The position numbers and the translations under genes were made by a program. Source: Acidobacteriaceae bacterium (GTDB lineage: Bacteria; Acidobacteriota; Terriglobia; Terriglobales; Acidobacteriaceae). From it: a stretch of DNA of 64,000 bases. Each line of letters begins with the position of its first letter. Within the stretch, counting starts at the first letter, position 1. Of this stretch, positions 42,797 through 58,080 are shown piece by piece. The stretch covers positions 208,391 to 272,390 of the forward strand of contig JAOAPC010000003.1 of NCBI GenBank assembly GCA_025462735.1, read 5' to 3'. The notes beneath the pieces were generated by a model, which saw nothing but the letters and a program-made list of their open reading frames with translations, made no database searches and was not told the origin of the DNA.

Positions 42797-43473
42797 CCAC
42801 CGCCGACATCGTTATCGGGCGGGATTCCGGCGGGCTGGCCCACCTTTCGTCTAAATTTTCAAAACTGAGGCTGCCCCATCCTTCGCGATTTTCGAAGGGT
42901 GGGATTCCGCGTCGAATGCGGAACCGCGGAAGAGCGGCCCCTTCAGGGCCGCGTAACACGCCATTCCCCCCACATGTCATCCTGAGCGAAGCGTGATCTT
43001 TCGCTGACGAAAGATCACGCGGAGTCGAAGGACTCCGTGCTTGCTGGCACCCTACACAGGCCAGGAAGGGAGTTCTCTGCAATACCTAGGACAGGCAGCG
43101 CTGGGAGAATTCCTCGACGTGTCCCGCGATGGCGCAGGCGAAACACGAGGTCCCCTTCGGCTTCGCTCAGGGCAAGCTTTCGACTGCGGAAACCGATTCG
43201 CGAGCGAATCGGTTTCCTCCGCTCAAGATGACAGAGTAAGGGGTGCGCACGGCGGGATGGCTGAAGCCGCGGCACACAAGCTGTGCGGGTGCCCACGCTT
43301 CGCGATTTTCGAAGGATGGGATTCCGCGTCGAATGCGCAACCGTGAAAGAGCAGCCCTTTCGCGAACCGAGACCCACCGACGAATTCCAGAGCGCAACTG
43401 CAACCGAACTTCCTGTAAAATCGTCTAAGTTTGCTAAGGCCTCGCAACATCCTGAACGTTAAGGAGGCAAACT
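42797..43473. repeat. Intergenic region with MITE-like element, family B copy 2
   Basis: The element spans 42975-43233 (259 bp), starting TGTCATCCTGAGCG and ending CGCTCAAGATGACA, with internal palindromes GATCTTTCG...CGAAAGATC and AACCGATTCGCGAGCGAATC. A flanking block (TTCGCGATTTTCGAAGG, then TGGGATTCCGCGTCGAATG) occurs twice, near 42880 and 43300. Translated frames through it are artefacts. It separates the cassette from the formate dehydrogenase genes. Confidence 0.75.
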
Positions 43474-46400
43474 GTGCTCACCGAGCTGCTCTCCCGCTGG
43501 CCGCTGATTCAGCAAATCAAGACTGGAGCTAATGGCAACGGCATCGAGTCGATGTCAGAGCGGACGCGCAACTTGCGTCCCAAGACCGATGGAGCACAGG
43601 TTGCGAGATCAATTTGCCCGTATTGCGGCGTGGGCTGCGGACAGCTCGCGTATCACAAAAATGGCAAGCTGATTTCGATTGAAGGCGATCCCGAGTCGCC
43701 GATTTCGCGCGGGCGACTCTGCCCCAAGGGCTCCGACACATTTGAGCTGCACACCCACCCGGGTCGACTGAAGAAGGTCAAATACCGCCGGCCATATTCC
43801 ACAAAGTGGGAAGATCTCGACCTTGAAACCGCCATGGACATGGTCGCTGACCGCCTGTGGGATTCGCGCGAACGCACCTTCCAGGAGAAAGACGAAAAAA
43901 GCGGCCAGCTGATAATGCAGACCAAGGCGGTCGCCCACCTCGGCGGCGCCACTCTCGACATCGAAGAAAATTATCTGATCAAAAAACTCTTCGCCATCGG
44001 TCTGGGAATGGTGTGCATTTCCAACCAGGCCCGTATATGACACAGCTCTACTGTGCCCGGTCTGGGCACAAGCTTTGGGCGGGGCGGCGCCACGACTGCG
44101 CAACAAGACCTGAGTAACGCGGATGCGATCCTGATTATGGGATCGTCGATGGCGGAGAACCATCCGGTCGGCTTCCAGTGGGTAATGGAAGCGCGGGAGC
44201 GCGGGGCGAAGATCATTCACGTGGACCCGCGGTTCACGCGCACCTCCGCGATGTCGGACATTTGGGCGCCGCTGCGCGCCGGCAGCGACATTATTTTCCT
44301 GGGCGCGATGGTGAATTACGTTCTCACCAACAATAAATACTTTCGTGACTACGTTCTGCATTACACCAATGCGGCAACACTGCTGCGAGATGATTTCAAG
44401 GACACGGAAGATTTGGACGGACTGTTCTCCGGCTGGGACGCAGAGAAGAAACAATATGACCCGGAGAGCTGGTTTTATCGAGGTGCTCCAATAAAGGGCG
44501 ATGGCAAGACTAAGCCCGGACACTCACCGGCGAACGGCGGCCATGCAAAAGATCGCGGAGGCGAGGCACAAGATACGGCCAAGTTTGAGTGGGACACGTC
44601 GCTCGAAGATCCGCGATGCGTGTTTCAGGTACTGAAGCGGCACTTCACGCGCTATACGCCGGAGATGGTTGAGCGCTTTTGCGGCGTCCCCAAAGACGTA
44701 TTTCTGAAAGTGGCAGAGACCTTCACGTCAGCTTCGGGGCCAGAGAAGACTGCGGCAATCTGCTACGCGGTTGGATGGACGCAGCATTCGAAGGGTGTGC
44801 AGGTCATTCGCACGGCGGCGATCTTGCAGTTGCTGCTGGGAAACATTGGCCGGCCAGGCGGCGGGATTTTGGCGCTGCGCGGGCATGCTTCGATTCAGGG
44901 ATCAACGGATGTGCCGACGCTCTATGACGTCCTGCCAGGTTATTTGCCGATGCCGATCTTCAATGCCGAAGCGAATACCTTGAAGGATTACATCAAAAAA
45001 AACAGCACCAGGACGGGCGTATGGTCGAACTTCGATTGTTACATCACTAGCCTGCTCAAGGCTTATTACGGGGACGCCGCAACCAAAGAAAATGATTACG
45101 GTTTTGATTGGCTTCCGCGCGTCACCGGCGATCACTCCCACTTCGGCTACTTTCTAGATATGCAGGACGGAAAGACGGAAGGCCTGTTCGTGATGGGGCA
45201 GAACCCGGCGGTGGGAGCGTCGAATGGGCGGCTCGAGCGCAGTGCGCTTTCGAAGCTGAAATGGCTGGTGGTGCGGGATATGGTCGAGATTGAAACCGCC
45301 TCGTTCTGGCTGGATTCGCCTGAAGTGCAGAGGGGCGAACTGGATCCGAAGAAGGTCGCGACAGAAGTGTTTCTCTTTCCTGCTGCGGGGACAGCCGAAA
45401 AAGAAGGAACGTTCACCAATACGCAGAGGCTGCTGCAGTTTCGTGAGAAGGCGGTGGATCCTCCGGGCGATGCCCGCAATGACACTTGGTTCATGTACCA
45501 TCTCGGCCGGAGGATGAAGGCAAAAGCGAAGAACGATACGCGACCGAGGAATGCTGGGCTGAATGCGCTGACGTGGGATTATCCCTTGGAAGGCAAACAG
45601 CGTGATCCGAATGTGCAAACAGTGCTGAAGGAAATCAATGGGCGAACGGTTAGCGACGGCAAGCAACTCAAGCACATGCAAGAGCTGAAGAACGATGGCA
45701 GTACCGCGTGCGGAGCATGGATTTACTGCGGCGTGTTTCCGGAGGAAGGACGGAACCGCGCTTTGGAGCGCAAGCCAAAAGATTTGCTCGGGCATGGCTG
45801 GGGATTTTCGTGGCCGAACGATTGCCGAATTATTTATAACCGGGCGTCGGCGCGTCCGGATGGGACCCCGTGGAGCGAGCGCAAGAAGTTGGTGTGGTGG
45901 GACGCAGAGAAAAAGGAATGGGGCGGGCTGGACAATGCCGATTTCAAGAAAGATATGGCGCCGGACACTCCTGACAGTCTTGATAAAGGGAAGGGAGTCG
46001 CAGCGCTGGGTGGAGCGCGGCCGTTTACGTTGCATCCGGATGGCGTGGGATGGCTTTTCGTGCCGAGCGGTTTGAAGGATGGACCACTGCCAACTCACTA
46101 CGAGCCACTGGAATCGCCGATTCATAATCCTCTATATAAGCAGCAAGAGGATCCGGCAGTGCAAAAGAAAGAGCGGCCGGATAATCCGTATGCAAAATCG
46201 CCGGGGGATCCACGGTATCCGTTTGTGCTCAGCACGTATCGCTTAACAGAGCAACACACGGCTGGCGGAATGACGCGTACGCTTTCGCATCTCGCAGAGT
46301 TGCAGCCTGAATTCTTTACTGAGGTTTCGCCCGAACTGGCGGAAGAAGTCGGTCTGGAACACGGAGACTGGGCTACTATTTCTACGCCGCGCGCGGAGGT

Positions 46401-46653
46401 TGAAGCGAGAGTGCTGATCACGCGCCGCATGCGTCCGATGTTGATCGATGGAAAGAAAATCCATCAGGTCGGAGTTCCGTATCACTGGGGATACAAGGGG
46501 CTTGTGAAGGGCGATATCGCGAACGACTTACTGGTGATTAGCGAAGAGCCGAATGTGCGAATCATGGAGACGAAGGCGTTGCTGTGCAATGTGAGGCCGG
46601 GGCGCCGGAACGGCGTTTCACCAGAGAGGACACGGAGGAAAACGGCGGTGTGA
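43474..46653 (+). CDS. fdnG: Selenocysteine-containing formate dehydrogenase alpha subunit (FdnG/FdoG type)
   Basis: Molybdenum/tungsten enzyme oxidising formate to CO2. Read through the UGA at 44038-44040 the protein has 1059 residues with Sec at 189. The N-terminal [4Fe-4S] ligands are Cys 48, 51, 55 and 83 (ICPYCGVGCG, RLCPKGS). The Sec site reads NQARI-U-HSSTVPGLGTSFGRG, matching NQARV-U-HGPTVA in E. coli FdnG. Later blocks also match: IHVDPRFTRTSAMSDIWAPL, GWTQHSKGVQVIRTAAILQL and the C-terminal VPYHWGYKG. No twin-arginine signal is seen at the N-terminus, unlike E. coli FdnG. Two separate open frames (43474-44040 and 44053-46653) are one gene. The beta and NrfD-like subunits follow. The product needs SelB and tRNA-Sec, not in this window. 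Confidence 0.95.
44038..44070 (+). promoter_or_regulatory. Bacterial SECIS element with selenocysteine UGA
   Basis: UGA at 44038-44040, then 18 nt, then GGUCU (44059-44063) as the loop of a perfect 7-bp stem UGUGCCC/GGGCACA (44052-44058 with 44064-44070). E. coli fdhF also has GGUCU 18 nt after its UGA, where SelB binds. Confidence 0.93.
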
Positions 46654-46808: not shown

Positions 46809-47597
46809 ATGGCGATAACAGCTTTTCTGACGGACTCGACACTTTGCATTGGTTGCAAAGCCTGCGAGGTCGCGTGCAAGGAATGGAACCACGTCGCCGA
46901 AGACGGCCTCGAGTGGAGCGGGTTTTCCTACGACAACACAGGTTCGGTGGGTTCGCAGACCTGGCGGCACGTAAAGTTTGTGGAGCAGAGTCCGGAGCCC
47001 GGATTTGGCGGCAATGCTCCGGAGATGAATTCGTGGTCGTTTTCATCTGACGTTTGCAAGCATTGCGAAAACGCGGGATGCCTGGAGGCTTGTCCGACAG
47101 GCGCGATCGTTCGCACGGAATTCGGCGGGGTCTTCGTTCAGCCGGACATCTGCAACGGATGCGGCTATTGTGTAGTTTCCTGCCCGTTCGGAGTGGTGGA
47201 AAGAAACGAAGATGACGGGCGCGCCTTCAAGTGCACGTTCTGCTACGACCGACAGAAGGTGGGATTGAAACCGGCGTGCGCGAAGGCGTGTCCGACGGAG
47301 TCGATTAAGTTCGGTGAAATTGAGGAGCTTCGGCATCATGCGAAGGAGCGAGTTGCGCAGCTCGAAAGTCGGGGAATGAAAGATGTGCAGTTCTACAATG
47401 CGGGTGATACCAGCGTCGGTGGAACCCACGCGATGTTTATTCTGCGGGGTGATCCGCGGCAGTACAATCTTCCGCCGAAACCGGAAGTGCCAACGGTGTA
47501 TTTGAGGAAGGCGTGGCGATCGTCGGCGGTTGGAGCGCTGATGCTACTCGGCGGGGCGGTGGTTGCGTTCTTGGCAGATGGGAATGGCAGACGCTGA
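46809..47597 (+). CDS. fdnH: Formate dehydrogenase iron-sulfur (beta) subunit
   Basis: A 262-residue electron-transfer subunit. Four [4Fe-4S] cysteine groups: CIGCKACEVACKEW (Cys 13, 16, 19, 23), CKHCENAGCLEACP, CNGCGYCVVSCP and CTFCYDRQKVGLKPACAKACP, the FdnH/HybA arrangement. A C-terminal hydrophobic segment (SSAVGALMLLGGAVVAFLA, about 237-256) probably anchors it in the membrane, as in FdnH. It takes electrons from the Sec/Mo subunit and passes them to the NrfD-like subunit. It lies 155 bp after the alpha gene, with half a palindromic element in the gap. Confidence 0.92.
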   Translation: MAITAFLTDSTLCIGCKACEVACKEWNHVAEDGLEWSGFSYDNTGSVGSQTWRHVKFVEQSPEPGFGGNAPEMNSWSFSSDVCKHCENAGCLEACPTGAIVRTEFGGVFVQPDICNGCGYCVVSCPFGVVERNEDDGRAFKCTFCYDRQKVGLKPACAKACPTESIKFGEIEELRHHAKERVAQLESRGMKDVQFYNAGDTSVGGTHAMFILRGDPRQYNLPPKPEVPTVYLRKAWRSSAVGALMLLGGAVVAFLADGNGRR

Positions 47598-47790
47598 ACT
47601 TCAGAACACCTAACCACAGAGGGCACAGAGTTACACAGAGGAAACATCGACCACAGAGTTAGCCTTTGACTTCGGCCAGGGCAGCCCGGCACAAAGAGAA
47701 AGGCACCGACCACAAAGGACACGAAGGTACACGAAGGAAAACTGAGCAATGGCGGGCGAGGCGCCCGCCCCACACACACGAAGGAAACGA
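47598..47790. repeat. Short intergenic repeats (CCACAGAGG/ACACGAAGG type)
   Basis: Repeats such as AACCACAGAGGGCACAGAG, ACCACAAAGGACACGAAGG and a hairpin GGCGGGCGAGGCGCCCGCC fill the gap between the beta and NrfD-like genes. Related units recur near 48885 and 62110. Confidence 0.65.
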
Positions 47791-48837
47791 ATGAGTGATT
47801 CAGCCCGCGTCCCGCCACGAGTTCCGAATGTTTCGAGCGAACGACGACTGGTCGAAATTCGCCGCGAAGCTGAGAACACCGGCAAAGTCGCAGCCAAGGG
47901 CGTGCGCCCGAGCGGAGCCCCGTTTCCAATCGCATCCCCAGAAACCGGCTATTACGGAATTCCACTGCTCAAGGAACCTGCATGGACGTGGCAGATCCCG
48001 CTCTACTTTTTCGTCGGAGGGGCTTCTGCGGCGGCGGGGGTGGTGGGCGCAATCGGCAGCTATACCGGAGCTGATCGGAAACTGGTGCGCGATGCGCGTT
48101 GGATTGCGGCATCTGGCTGTGTGCTCTCGCCCCCATTACTGATCGCTGATCTCGGGCGACCGACGCGCTTCCTTAACATGCTGAGAGTTTTCAAACCGCA
48201 GAGCGCAATGTCGATGGGCGTATGGACGCTGGTGGGATTTTCTGGCGGCGCAGCAGCCGCAGCTTTCGCGCAATTCATGACCGATCGCTACGGAACGTCG
48301 TTCCCGGTGCGGGTGATTGAGCAAGCAGGACAAGCGGCGTCTCTGCTGTTCGGGCTTCCCTTTTCCAACTACACGGGCGTTTTGATCGGCGCAACTGCGG
48401 TTCCAGCTTGGAACGAAAATGCCGCCGATCTTCCGATTCTTTTTGGAATGTCGGGGCTTTCGGCTGCGGTCGGGCTGCTTGAGCTAATGGGAAATCACAA
48501 GAGCCGAGCTCTTGGAGCGCTGGGATTGGGCGCCGCGCTGTTTGAATGCTGGGAAGGATTGAAGATCGAAGTTCAGCAGAAGCCGGTGTTGAAACCGCTG
48601 AAGCATGGGGCGAGCGGGACACTGACTCGCGCTGCTGGATTGCTCTCCGGACCATTGCCCGCGGCCTTGCGTCTGATGAGCTTGTTCTCCGGATCGGGGA
48701 ATAAAAGTTCGTTACGAAAGGCGGCCGCGGTTTCGTCGGTTGCGGGTTCACTGCTGACACGCATGGCGTGGATCTACGCGGGCCACGTTTCCGCGAGAGA
48801 CTGGCGCATTCCGCTGGGGATAAAATCCCAGGAATAA
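47791..48837 (+). CDS. nrfD: NrfD/PsrC-type membrane subunit of formate dehydrogenase
   Basis: A 348-residue polytopic protein from the ATG at 47791 (GAAGGAAACGA upstream; an earlier start at 47749 lies in repeat DNA). After a hydrophilic N-terminus it has GYYGIPLLKEPAWTWQIPLYFFVGG, LIADLGRPTRFLNMLRVFKP (a highly conserved NrfD segment) and MSMGVWTLVGFSGGAAAAAF, with about eight hydrophobic spans. NrfD-family proteins pass electrons from iron-sulfur subunits to the quinone pool. Here it replaces the cytochrome b subunit (FdnI) of E. coli. Third gene of the operon. Confidence 0.9.
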   Translation: MSDSARVPPRVPNVSSERRLVEIRREAENTGKVAAKGVRPSGAPFPIASPETGYYGIPLLKEPAWTWQIPLYFFVGGASAAAGVVGAIGSYTGADRKLVRDARWIAASGCVLSPPLLIADLGRPTRFLNMLRVFKPQSAMSMGVWTLVGFSGGAAAAAFAQFMTDRYGTSFPVRVIEQAGQAASLLFGLPFSNYTGVLIGATAVPAWNENAADLPILFGMSGLSAAVGLLELMGNHKSRALGALGLGAALFECWEGLKIEVQQKPVLKPLKHGASGTLTRAAGLLSGPLPAALRLMSLFSGSGNKSSLRKAAAVSSVAGSLLTRMAWIYAGHVSARDWRIPLGIKSQE

Positions 48838-49098
48838 TTTCGTTCTTCTCCGCCGCAAGTCGCTCTCGCTTTTTGAAAGCTTTTAACCGCAGAGGACGCA
48901 GAGAAAACCCGCTGAGAGCGCGGAGTCTCGTGCTTCTCATAGTTTGCCTGCGGGGTCGCAAACAGCGGTCTTGTTCATCTCCCAGCTACAGATTAAGCCT
49001 CCCCCGGACGTGGACGGCCGGGGCTACACGATGCTAGCTGACTGCGGGCTGCCCGTCTCCCCACAACAGAGTTAGTTTGCTAATCTTCGGTCCGGACA
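48838..49098. other. Intergenic region between convergent genes
   Basis: About 260 bp with a copy of the CCGCAGAGGACGCAGAG repeat near 48885. It was examined for tRNA-Sec because of the selenoprotein; no cloverleaf or TpsiC-like arm is seen. Confidence 0.4.
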
Positions 49099-50061
49099 CT
49101 AGTGCGATTTTGAAGTGTAGTATCCGGTGCGGTGTCGGGCTTTGTAGTCTGAGGCTTCGGGAACTCCAGTTAACTTCACTTCAAGTCTGCGGAAGTCTGA
49201 GTCGGCGAGTCGTTGCGAAGGATAGTAGGCAAGAAGGTATTGCGTGCGCAGTTCGTCGCTGATGGCGCGAAAAGCCTGATCGAGTTGCGTGATCGAAGAC
49301 GCATAGTAATACTTGCCGCCAGTGTCTTCCGAGAGTTGGATCAACGCGTGTTCGCCGCCGGTATCGCGGCCAGCACTGGCTTCGATAGGCACATCAATGA
49401 TGCTGTACACGATAGCTTCGGCCTGCTGGGCGGCGCGGAGCGCACCATGGTAATTGACCTGGCTGACAGTGTCACCACCGTCAGTGATTACGACTAATAC
49501 TTTCCTTCCCTGCCGGGTTTCGAGCGCCTGGGCCCCGAGAAAAACCGCATCGTAAAGTGCAGTGGCGGCGCCGGTATGCACGCGATCAATGCCGTGATCG
49601 ATAGTTTTTAAATCTGCGGTGAAGGGCACATCCTGACTGACGACTTCGCTGAAATCGTAAAGCGACAAAGCGTCGACGGGACGAATAATCGCGTGCGCAA
49701 AACGGCGAGCGGAGGCAAGCTCGAGGGGAAGATCTTTGCGGGTGCTCAGGCTGGTATCGATGTCGAGCACGATGGAAAGCGGCAGCTCGGATTCTTTTCC
49801 GAAGACGGAAATCTTCTGGGGATGGCCGTCTTCGAATATTTGAAAATTATCTTTGTTCAGATTGCCCACAGGCGAGCCATGCTCGTCGGTGACGGTAACG
49901 AAGATGTTGACCAGCTTTACGTCAACCTTGATGTCGCTGCCATTGTCAGCAGAGGACGCCGGCGCCGAGGACCTGGCCCATGGCGGCTTGGGCACGCTGG
50001 ACGAAGTCTGAGCGTGACACACGGATGCGGCCAGTAGCGCAACAAGCGGTAAATGTTTCAT
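49099..50061 (-). CDS. VWFA-related secreted protein (acidobacterial type)
   Basis: A 320-residue protein with signal peptide LPLVALLAASVCHAQT. A beta region (VKLVNIFVTVTDEHGSPVGN, NFQIFEDGHPQKIS) leads into a von Willebrand A domain (about 90-300) with MIDAS-like DIDTSLST and VLVVITDGGDTVSQ. This N-terminal plus VWA layout is the 'VWFA-related domain, Acidobacteria' family. It is probably an extracytoplasmic metal-dependent binding protein. Its ATG overlaps the stop of the MoaD-MoaE gene by four bases (ATGA), so the two are translationally coupled although their functions look unrelated. Confidence 0.88.
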   Translation of the reverse strand: MKHLPLVALLAASVCHAQTSSSVPKPPWARSSAPASSADNGSDIKVDVKLVNIFVTVTDEHGSPVGNLNKDNFQIFEDGHPQKISVFGKESELPLSIVLDIDTSLSTRKDLPLELASARRFAHAIIRPVDALSLYDFSEVVSQDVPFTADLKTIDHGIDRVHTGAATALYDAVFLGAQALETRQGRKVLVVITDGGDTVSQVNYHGALRAAQQAEAIVYSIIDVPIEASAGRDTGGEHALIQLSEDTGGKYYYASSITQLDQAFRAISDELRTQYLLAYYPSQRLADSDFRRLEVKLTGVPEASDYKARHRTGYYTSKSH

Positions 50062-50900
50062 TTGCGGGCTATGGGGTTGGATGCAGGGTTCCCTGAATGG
50101 CTGCCCGCGTTATCCGCGTCTGGCGTGCGCAGGGGCGAGGACCCTTCGGCTTCGCTAAGGACAGGCGCCCGTGCCTCCATTGAAGAATTGATGTCGTCGG
50201 GAAAGGGTTCGCCGTCGGACCAAACTGCTCCGTCTTCGAAGTGTTCTTTTTTCCAGATTGGAACCGTTCGCTTGAGAGTGTCGACGAGCCAGCGACAGGC
50301 GTCGAATGCCGCGGCACGATGGGCAGACGCGACAACGATAACGACGCTGGTTTCGCCGATCTCAAGTTTGCCGAGGCGATGGATGATTGCTGCATCGCGA
50401 ATCTGGAATTGTGCACGAGCTTCAGCGATCAGAGATTCCAGCTGTTTAAGCGCCATCTCTTCGTAGGCTTCGTAGTCGAGATACAGAGTACGTCGGCCAC
50501 GGCTGTGGTTTCGCACGACTCCTTCGAACACGACCGCGGCCCCGTCTTCCGGACGCTTGATTACTTCGAGCAGACCGGCGCTGTCGATCGCTTCATGAGT
50601 AATAAACGCCCGCTCGTCGATTTTTGTGGGCTGATCAGGGCTGCGAGATTCGGATGTGCCGCCACTTACCGGAGGCAGTAGCGCGACCTCATCTCCGGAA
50701 TGCAGCTTCATTTCAGGTCGAGCATATTCCTGATTTACAGAGATCGCGATCGAGCTGAAGCTTCCCTTGATTGCTGATAACCGCTGCTCATAGTGGCTGA
50801 GGACGTCGGCTGCGCGGGCGTGATCAGGCAGAGAGAGCAGGTCGGAGCTGCGACCCGCGAGGTCTTTTAATATGCCGAAAAATAAGACACGAACCTGCAT
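50058..50900 (-). CDS. moaX: Fused molybdopterin synthase MoaD-MoaE (MoaX-like)
   Basis: A 280-residue fusion. Residues 1-81 are MoaD (MQVRVLFFGILKDLAGRSS, ending EVALLPPVSGG with the Gly-Gly at 80-81). Residues about 93-235 are MoaE (ITHEAIDSAGLLEVIKRPED, GAAVVFEGVVRNHSRGR, IIHRLGKLEIGE, PIWKKEHFEDG with the catalytic-type lysines). MoaD must present a free C-terminal Gly-Gly to carry sulfur, and here it is internal, as in mycobacterial MoaX, which is cleaved after translation. The last 40 residues, including PVLSEAEGS, come from a palindromic repeat. The enzyme makes the pterin dithiolene of molybdenum cofactor, needed by the neighbouring formate dehydrogenase. Confidence 0.92.
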   Translation of the reverse strand: MQVRVLFFGILKDLAGRSSDLLSLPDHARAADVLSHYEQRLSAIKGSFSSIAISVNQEYARPEMKLHSGDEVALLPPVSGGTSESRSPDQPTKIDERAFITHEAIDSAGLLEVIKRPEDGAAVVFEGVVRNHSRGRRTLYLDYEAYEEMALKQLESLIAEARAQFQIRDAAIIHRLGKLEIGETSVVIVVASAHRAAAFDACRWLVDTLKRTVPIWKKEHFEDGAVWSDGEPFPDDINSSMEARAPVLSEAEGSSPLRTPDADNAGSHSGNPASNPIARK

Positions 50901-57716: not shown

Positions 57717-58080
57717 CGGCACTTCCGTGCCGGGCTTTCATATCCCGCCCCGGAGGGGCTGGGCGTATCGAACTAAAAAACTTGTGATTGCGGGCAATTT
57801 TGCTCACGCCGCGGGATAAATACCCAGCACCTTCACCATGTCCGCTACGGCTCTTAATTGCAGCAAAGCACCTTTGGCCACGTGACCCGGCACTTCGGTG
57901 CCGGGCTTTCATATCCCGCCCCTGAGGGGCTGGGCCGTATTGATCTAAATAACTGCCGTATCGAACTAAAAAACTTGTGATTGCGGGCAATTTTGCTCAC
58001 GCGGCTGGATAAATCCCCAGTACTTTCACCATGTCCGCTACCGCTCTTAATTGCAGCAAAGCACCTTTGGCCAGCTTGTC
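57717..58080. repeat. Tandem duplication including the 3' end of pheA
   Basis: A block with hairpin CCGGCAC...GTGCCGG and GGGCTTTCATATCCCGCCCC occurs at 57717 and 57890. The following block (GTATCGAACTAAAAAACTTG through the last ~25 codons of pheA) occurs at 57765 and 57958, 193 bp apart. The outer copy is a non-functional echo of the pheA terminus. Confidence 0.85.

Follow-up and report, generated by a model that had tools for sequence, protein, structure and literature searches.

Introduction

Among bacterial selenoproteins, FdhA and SelD are described as the most widespread, with FdhA reported in 67 of 75 selenocysteine (Sec)-using organisms (PMC1794560). A membrane-bound, multi-subunit Sec-containing formate dehydrogenase (FDH), FDH1 of Actinomycetospora chiangmaiensis DSM 45062, is encoded in a cluster that includes selA and selB; this strain is reported to need selenium for the removal of formic acid and to contain FDH proteins in low amounts (PMC7176365). 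Because the strain is described as having three Sec-FDH systems, the effect of selenium cannot be assigned to FDH1 specifically. Sets that combine FdnG-like and FdnH-like peripheral subunits with an NrfD-like membrane subunit have been given the tentative name FqoABC, for formate:quinone oxidoreductase, and the groups for which the excerpted text lists FqoC are the Actinobacteria, Chlorobi, Crenarchaeota, Chloroflexi, and Deltaproteobacteria, Acidobacteria not being among them (PMC8076601). The Sec trait in the latter phylum is already in print, three known selenoprotein genes being listed for the acidobacterium Occallatibacter riparius (PMC12013277), and none of the literature titles on selenocysteine and Acidobacteria or Acidobacteriota, among the matches listed, concerned Sec decoding in the phylum.

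Here we describe an FDH locus in a 64,000-nucleotide stretch of an Acidobacteriaceae genome (the window, meaning the whole stretch analyzed), which is likened by description to the membrane-bound Sec-FDH of A. chiangmaiensis, from a different phylum, and whose predicted subunits resemble those of FqoABC. The enzymes of Arthrobacter sp. YA7-1 and Thermomicrobium roseum, relatives within NF041513 (formate_DH_Act) that belong to other phyla, are 52-53% identical to the window alpha subunit and carry a UGA at the aligned codon followed by a hairpin at 18-19 nt, while E. coli FdnG is approximately 39% identical. Judged from sequence, the locus almost certainly encodes a three-subunit FDH in which Sec would be inserted at the UGA at 44038 by means of SelB and a downstream hairpin, and which would transfer electrons from formate to quinone.

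Results and Discussion

A single alpha-subunit gene spans an in-frame UGA

The features of the alpha-subunit gene, all on the forward strand, are as follows.

43461..43467, +, Shine-Dalgarno-like AAGGAGG in the sequence, six bases ahead of the GTG start
43474..46653, +, formate dehydrogenase alpha gene, 1059 codons plus stop, with the predicted Sec at codon 189
44038..44040, +, in-frame UGA, probably read as selenocysteine, from alignment to a modified residue and from TGA in 34 of 34 copies
44052..44070, +, predicted SECIS hairpin with a 7-bp stem, loop GGUCU at 44059-44063, -11.7 kcal/mol, one silently covarying pair
46651..46653, +, terminal UGA, an ordinary stop with no qualifying hairpin downstream

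The standard code yields two open reading frames here, 43474-44040 (188 amino acids, GTG start) and 44053-46653 (866 amino acids), which share a common frame. When TGA is taken as a residue they become a single frame, in which TGA occurs just twice, as codon 189 and as the final codon. The first-pass annotation, made from the sequence alone, had proposed that the adjacent frames are one selenoprotein gene, and the shared frame, otherwise open across 1059 codons, bears this out. It had also expected routine annotation to give two truncated genes, which is overstated; a split is not inevitable, because RefSeq keeps two UGA-containing homologues as single coding sequences spanning the UGA (Arthrobacter WP_264638076.1 and Thermomicrobium WP_143714751.1). 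In profile searches the joined protein scores 1593.9 bits against the NF041513 formate dehydrogenase model (cut-off 1400) and 955.9 bits against TIGR01553, FDH-N alpha (cut-off 814.2), and it contains Molybdopterin, Fe4S4, and dinucleotide-binding Pfam domains.

Short repeats are also present in this region. A AGAGGACACGGAGGAA-like repeat at 46625-46640 codes part of the alpha C-terminal tail and occurs again at 48891, and CGCTCAGGATGACA-like repeats lie around the gene in both orientations (34097, 34304, 40737, 42975, 43220, and 46757).

The UGA is conserved at the Sec position

Residue 189 aligns with the modified residue X of E. coli FdnG (1KQF chain A; NQARV-X-HGPTV), and also with X of 1H0H (HQARI-X-HSATV). 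In both structures X is presumably selenocysteine, acting as a metal ligand. The UGA thus falls, as had been proposed, at the conserved Sec position, on the modified residue of the solved FdnG.

To the window gene (L031) can be added other copies with DNA across the site, 34 in total, comprising 33 of the 36 loci L025-L060 (L027, L029, and L030 stop short of the Sec site and were left out of the codon count) and the paralogue in the window's own genome (L061). All 34 copies, 32 of which are from other genomes, have TGA at the Sec codon. TGA is likewise found in Arthrobacter, Thermomicrobium, and E. coli fdnG and fdhF; the Chelatococcus homologue (L068) has Cys, and the pairing of Sec- and Cys-containing homologues is usual. 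Searches with back-translated patterns identified named relatives at six loci, among them the three that stop short of the Sec site; five of the six are in MAGs labeled Acidobacteria, Acidobacteriota, or Terriglobia and the sixth is in an Actinobacteria MAG. Together with an Acido-Lenti-1 RNA in the window, these labels point to Acidobacteriota as the phylum.

These data bear on the alternatives that translation really ends at the UGA or that the codon is a sequencing or assembly error, the locus then being a pseudogene or two genes. Such an explanation would fit the two frames of the standard code, but it must contend with a frame that is otherwise open for 1059 codons, with the presence of selA, selB, selC, and selD in the genome, and with a TGA retained at the same codon in all 34 copies. 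Sequencing error and pseudogene were rejected on this conservation, and we regard a stop or error at this position as extremely improbable.

A probable SECIS hairpin follows the UGA

The putative Sec codon is followed by a hairpin made up of UGUGCCC (44052-44058), GGUCU (44059-44063), and GGGCACA (44064-44070). The loop sequence begins 18 nt past the UGA on a 7-bp stem, where the first-pass annotation had located it, and the same measure gives 18 in E. coli K-12 fdhF, in which the TGA is codon 140. The designation "fdhF-type" holds for the spacing and the loop letters and fails for the stem, which in fdhF is predicted to fold with interruptions, whereas the window stem runs as an unbroken helix of 7 bp.

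A published model for bacterial SECIS elements specifies an apical loop of 3-9 nt, an upper stem of 4-16 bp, a G within the first two loop positions, a UGA-loop spacing of 16-37 nt, and a free energy of at most -7.5 kcal/mol (PMC13188914). With 7 bp closing a 5-nt loop, GGUCU as the loop, a spacing of 18 nt, and -11.7 kcal/mol for the hairpin alone, the window element lies within all four numerical constraints, and 31 of the 34 copies pass the -7.5 kcal/mol limit while three fail. A copy of E. coli fdnG, whose SECIS is accepted in the literature, served as a control for the simple hairpin score and fails as well, at -2.1 kcal/mol, which indicates that this score misses interrupted or weak stems. 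A simplified, loose form of the bacterial model is passed by 107 of the 2006 TGAs in the window, so that by itself it is weak evidence, and we rejected it as stand-alone proof. The specific arrangement is much rarer: among the 2006 TGAs of the two window strands, the present one alone has GGTCT at +18 with at least six of seven pairs, and 40 Markov-simulated windows with 41093 TGA triplets (one strand) contained a single such case. No comparable hairpin was found after the terminal UGA, and a search of the whole window with Rfam at gathering thresholds returned no SECIS family, the sole match being an Acido-Lenti-1 RNA.

57886-57931, +, Acido-Lenti-1 RNA, 37.9 bits (gathering score 37)

RNA folding gave a divided answer. 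The 60 nt from the UGA onward form the SECIS stem, and do so likewise when the first 3-14 nt are held unpaired in a ribosome-like manner, but the 51 nt at 44035-44085 prefer a different hairpin, whose stability is equaled or exceeded in 14 of 200 shuffles (z = -1.43).

One silent stem pair covaries among close copies

We examined covariation in the 11 closest copies that encode the peptide V-P-G-L-G-T, the window copy included. Four of the seven stem pairs lie at first or second codon positions and are invariant in these copies, and since V-P-G-L-G-T imposes them whatever codons are used, they are uninformative; the perfect stem was accordingly downgraded as independent evidence. At third positions, the silent Val-Gly pair (15-27) is Watson-Crick in all 11 copies (G-C in seven, C-G in three, and U-A in one), the Pro-Leu pair is C-G in all 11, and only six copies can form the outermost pair, Thr-Thr. 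Additionally, the Gly codon of the loop is GGT in 11 of 11 copies, against a GGT share of 3-32% among the Gly codons elsewhere in those genes. Were the copies independent, the corresponding probabilities would be approximately 10^-5.6 (Val-Gly), 10^-5.8 (Pro-Leu), and 10^-10.3 (GGT), values that overstate the significance because the copies are related.

For the window gene taken singly, synonymous shuffles in the fixed register reach seven pairs 5.7% of the time, and over the 34 copies the mean pairing in that register is 6.24 of 7, compared with 5.01 in synonymous shuffles. Four copies of the second type (L039, L040, L048, and L061) pair below their own shuffles in the fixed register, and these do form a hairpin once its closing pair is shifted.

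The genome encodes Sec machinery and further predicted selenoproteins

The window's own assembly (4.36 Mb in 24 contigs, 97% complete) was searched for the Sec-decoding genes that the first-pass annotation had predicted, the absence of selB and selC having been named there as evidence against a selenoprotein. All four were detected, scattered apart from each other in the genome: tRNA-Sec (selC) on contig C5 (69.9 bits, anticodon TCA; L063:2796-2892), SelB on C12 (374.7 bits, wing domains 2 and 3 of SelB present), SelA on C11 (543.7 bits over joined matches), and SelD on C18 (359.2 bits over joined matches). A second tRNA-Sec match in this genome (47.1 against a cut-off of 47) was rejected as a tRNA-Ser.

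Decoding of the UGA as another amino acid (Cys or Trp, for instance) through suppression or an altered code finds some precedent in the Cys-containing Chelatococcus homologue and in the Cys-inserting opal tRNAs (selC* tRNA-Cys) reported from other phyla (PMC7609411). The genome, however, has SelA and SelD, and its tRNA-Sec combines a UCA anticodon with a D-stem of 6 bp and a long variable arm; a SECIS-like hairpin lies downstream of the UGA, and TGA is the normal stop in three of six other frames checked (beta, MoaD-MoaE, and DUF6600, with TAA ending two frames and TAG one). Neighboring genes still use UGA for termination, and there is very little likelihood that an amino acid other than Sec is inserted at this codon.

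Besides the window enzyme with its probable Sec, the genome holds a second formate dehydrogenase (L061:1182-4415, minus strand; G000:C17:108187-111231), 44% identical to the first, which has one internal TGA and a hairpin of -8.5 kcal/mol in the expected place. The N-terminus of this paralogue, SRRDFFK, appears twin-arginine-like by eye, and on account of that signal the protein is probably exported. Similarly, the reading frame of selD (L062:2190; L020:1531) contains a TGA at KAAG-U-ASK, and a hairpin of 7 bp and -9.4 kcal/mol comes after it, so that SelD too would be a selenoprotein. The predicted selenoproteins of this genome therefore number at least three, namely the window FDH, the second FDH, and SelD.

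A possible formate:quinone oxidoreductase anchored in the membrane

Two further subunit genes follow that of the alpha subunit, and a gene of probable cofactor function lies nearby on the opposite strand.

46809..47597, +, iron-sulphur beta subunit (TIGR01582, Fer4 domains), with one C-terminal hydrophobic segment by hydropathy
47749..48837, +, NrfD-like membrane subunit that probably serves as anchor and reacts with quinone (PF03916, 53.5 bits, cut-off 25.8)
50058-50900, -, single protein that joins a MoaD-like (ThiS family) domain to a MoaE domain (Pfam-type domains)

The best match of the beta subunit is the FDH-beta model TIGR01582, at 201.6 bits and below its cut-off of 334.7, and crude hydropathy at a strict threshold gives two hydrophobic segments for the NrfD-like subunit, the corresponding subunit of FqoABC being described with eight transmembrane helices (PMC8076601). 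The MoaD-MoaE fusion is likely a molybdopterin synthase near the molybdoenzyme genes. The order alpha-beta-NrfD is common to the Arthrobacter, Thermomicrobium, and Chelatococcus records and points to a formate:quinone oxidoreductase with a membrane anchor. Inspection of the window alpha subunit by eye revealed no twin-arginine signal, and on this basis the enzyme probably faces the cytoplasm.

In the mechanism that we propose, SelD would supply selenophosphate and SelA would convert serine to Sec on the tRNA, providing charged tRNA; SelB with Sec-tRNA-Sec would bind the hairpin 18 nt past the UGA during translation, and selenocysteine would be placed at residue 189 in lieu of termination. The product would be a three-subunit enzyme in which the catalytic alpha subunit contains Sec and Mo/W-bisPGD, the beta subunit carries [4Fe-4S] clusters, and the NrfD-like subunit lies in the membrane. 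We infer that the finished enzyme would run in the direction of formate oxidation, with electrons passing via beta to the quinone pool.

The acceptor stem of tRNA-Sec in the phylum

The 8-bp acceptor stem is described as the major determinant of SelB binding in bacteria (PMC7609411), and twelve-bp acceptor/T-stems of other types have been published for other phyla (PMC5330540). We compared tRNA-Sec genes of the phylum (L063, L072-L079, L085, and L093-L121), which were the best-scoring or were picked for their FDH and so are not a random sample; five of 42 were unparsed and excluded. Among the 37 parsed genes, that of the window's own genome included, 26 have a mismatch in the eighth acceptor-stem layer (C-U, A-G, A-A, C-A, or A-C), whereas E. 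coli selC is paired there; in four of the 26 mismatched tRNAs the base can pair beside the T-stem instead. This frequent mismatch, together with a SECIS helix that is uninterrupted and has four of its seven pairs fixed by the peptide, is the ground for a speculative and rather unlikely reading in which the Sec recognition code of the phylum would be somewhat unlike that of E. coli, with SelB adapted to the helix and to the tRNA mismatch.

Distribution of the Sec trait across the phylum

To place the locus in the phylum, we surveyed sampled genomes for FDH, SelB, and tRNA-Sec. The FDH family, of either type, is present in 40 of 396 genomes (E <= 1e-100), SelB in 256 of the same 396 (E <= 1e-60), and tRNA-Sec in 120 of 199 (E <= 1e-11). 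SelB accompanies FDH in 36 of the 40 FDH-bearing genomes, compared with 220 of the 356 others (Fisher p = 2e-4, kinship ignored), and all eight genomes with a window-type FDH (at least 60% identity) have it. Within the window's family, 28 genomes could be compared among the matches listed for both proteins; eight have FDH and SelB, 19 have neither, one has SelB alone, and none has FDH alone (Fisher p = 2.9e-6 among these matches, kinship ignored).

SelB over the cut-off was absent in four of the 40 FDH-bearing genomes (G039, G055, G261, and G277), likely due to incomplete assembly. A wingless, short SelB in these genomes was considered and rejected, as the matched stretches are elongation factor Tu; in G039 the SelB-like fragments fall within one 483-amino-acid frame. 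tRNA-Sec is present in G039, G055, and G277, while neither SelB nor tRNA-Sec was detected in G261, where the best tRNA match is a tRNA-Ser. G261, which is 94% complete, has an FDH with TGA at the Sec site (L042; G261:C73:1659-4592), followed by a weak hairpin of -5.8 kcal/mol.

The finding is well supported and ordinary, a further example of a well-known kind, and it leaves the understanding of selenocysteine and of formate dehydrogenase unchanged. The close gene copies make up a small natural set of SECIS-type hairpins in which covariation is seen. At the sequence level, one genome of a soil phylum is confirmed to carry a full Sec-decoding system and is predicted to encode at least three selenoproteins, and the Sec trait proves common in that phylum, as the SelB and tRNA-Sec counts indicate.
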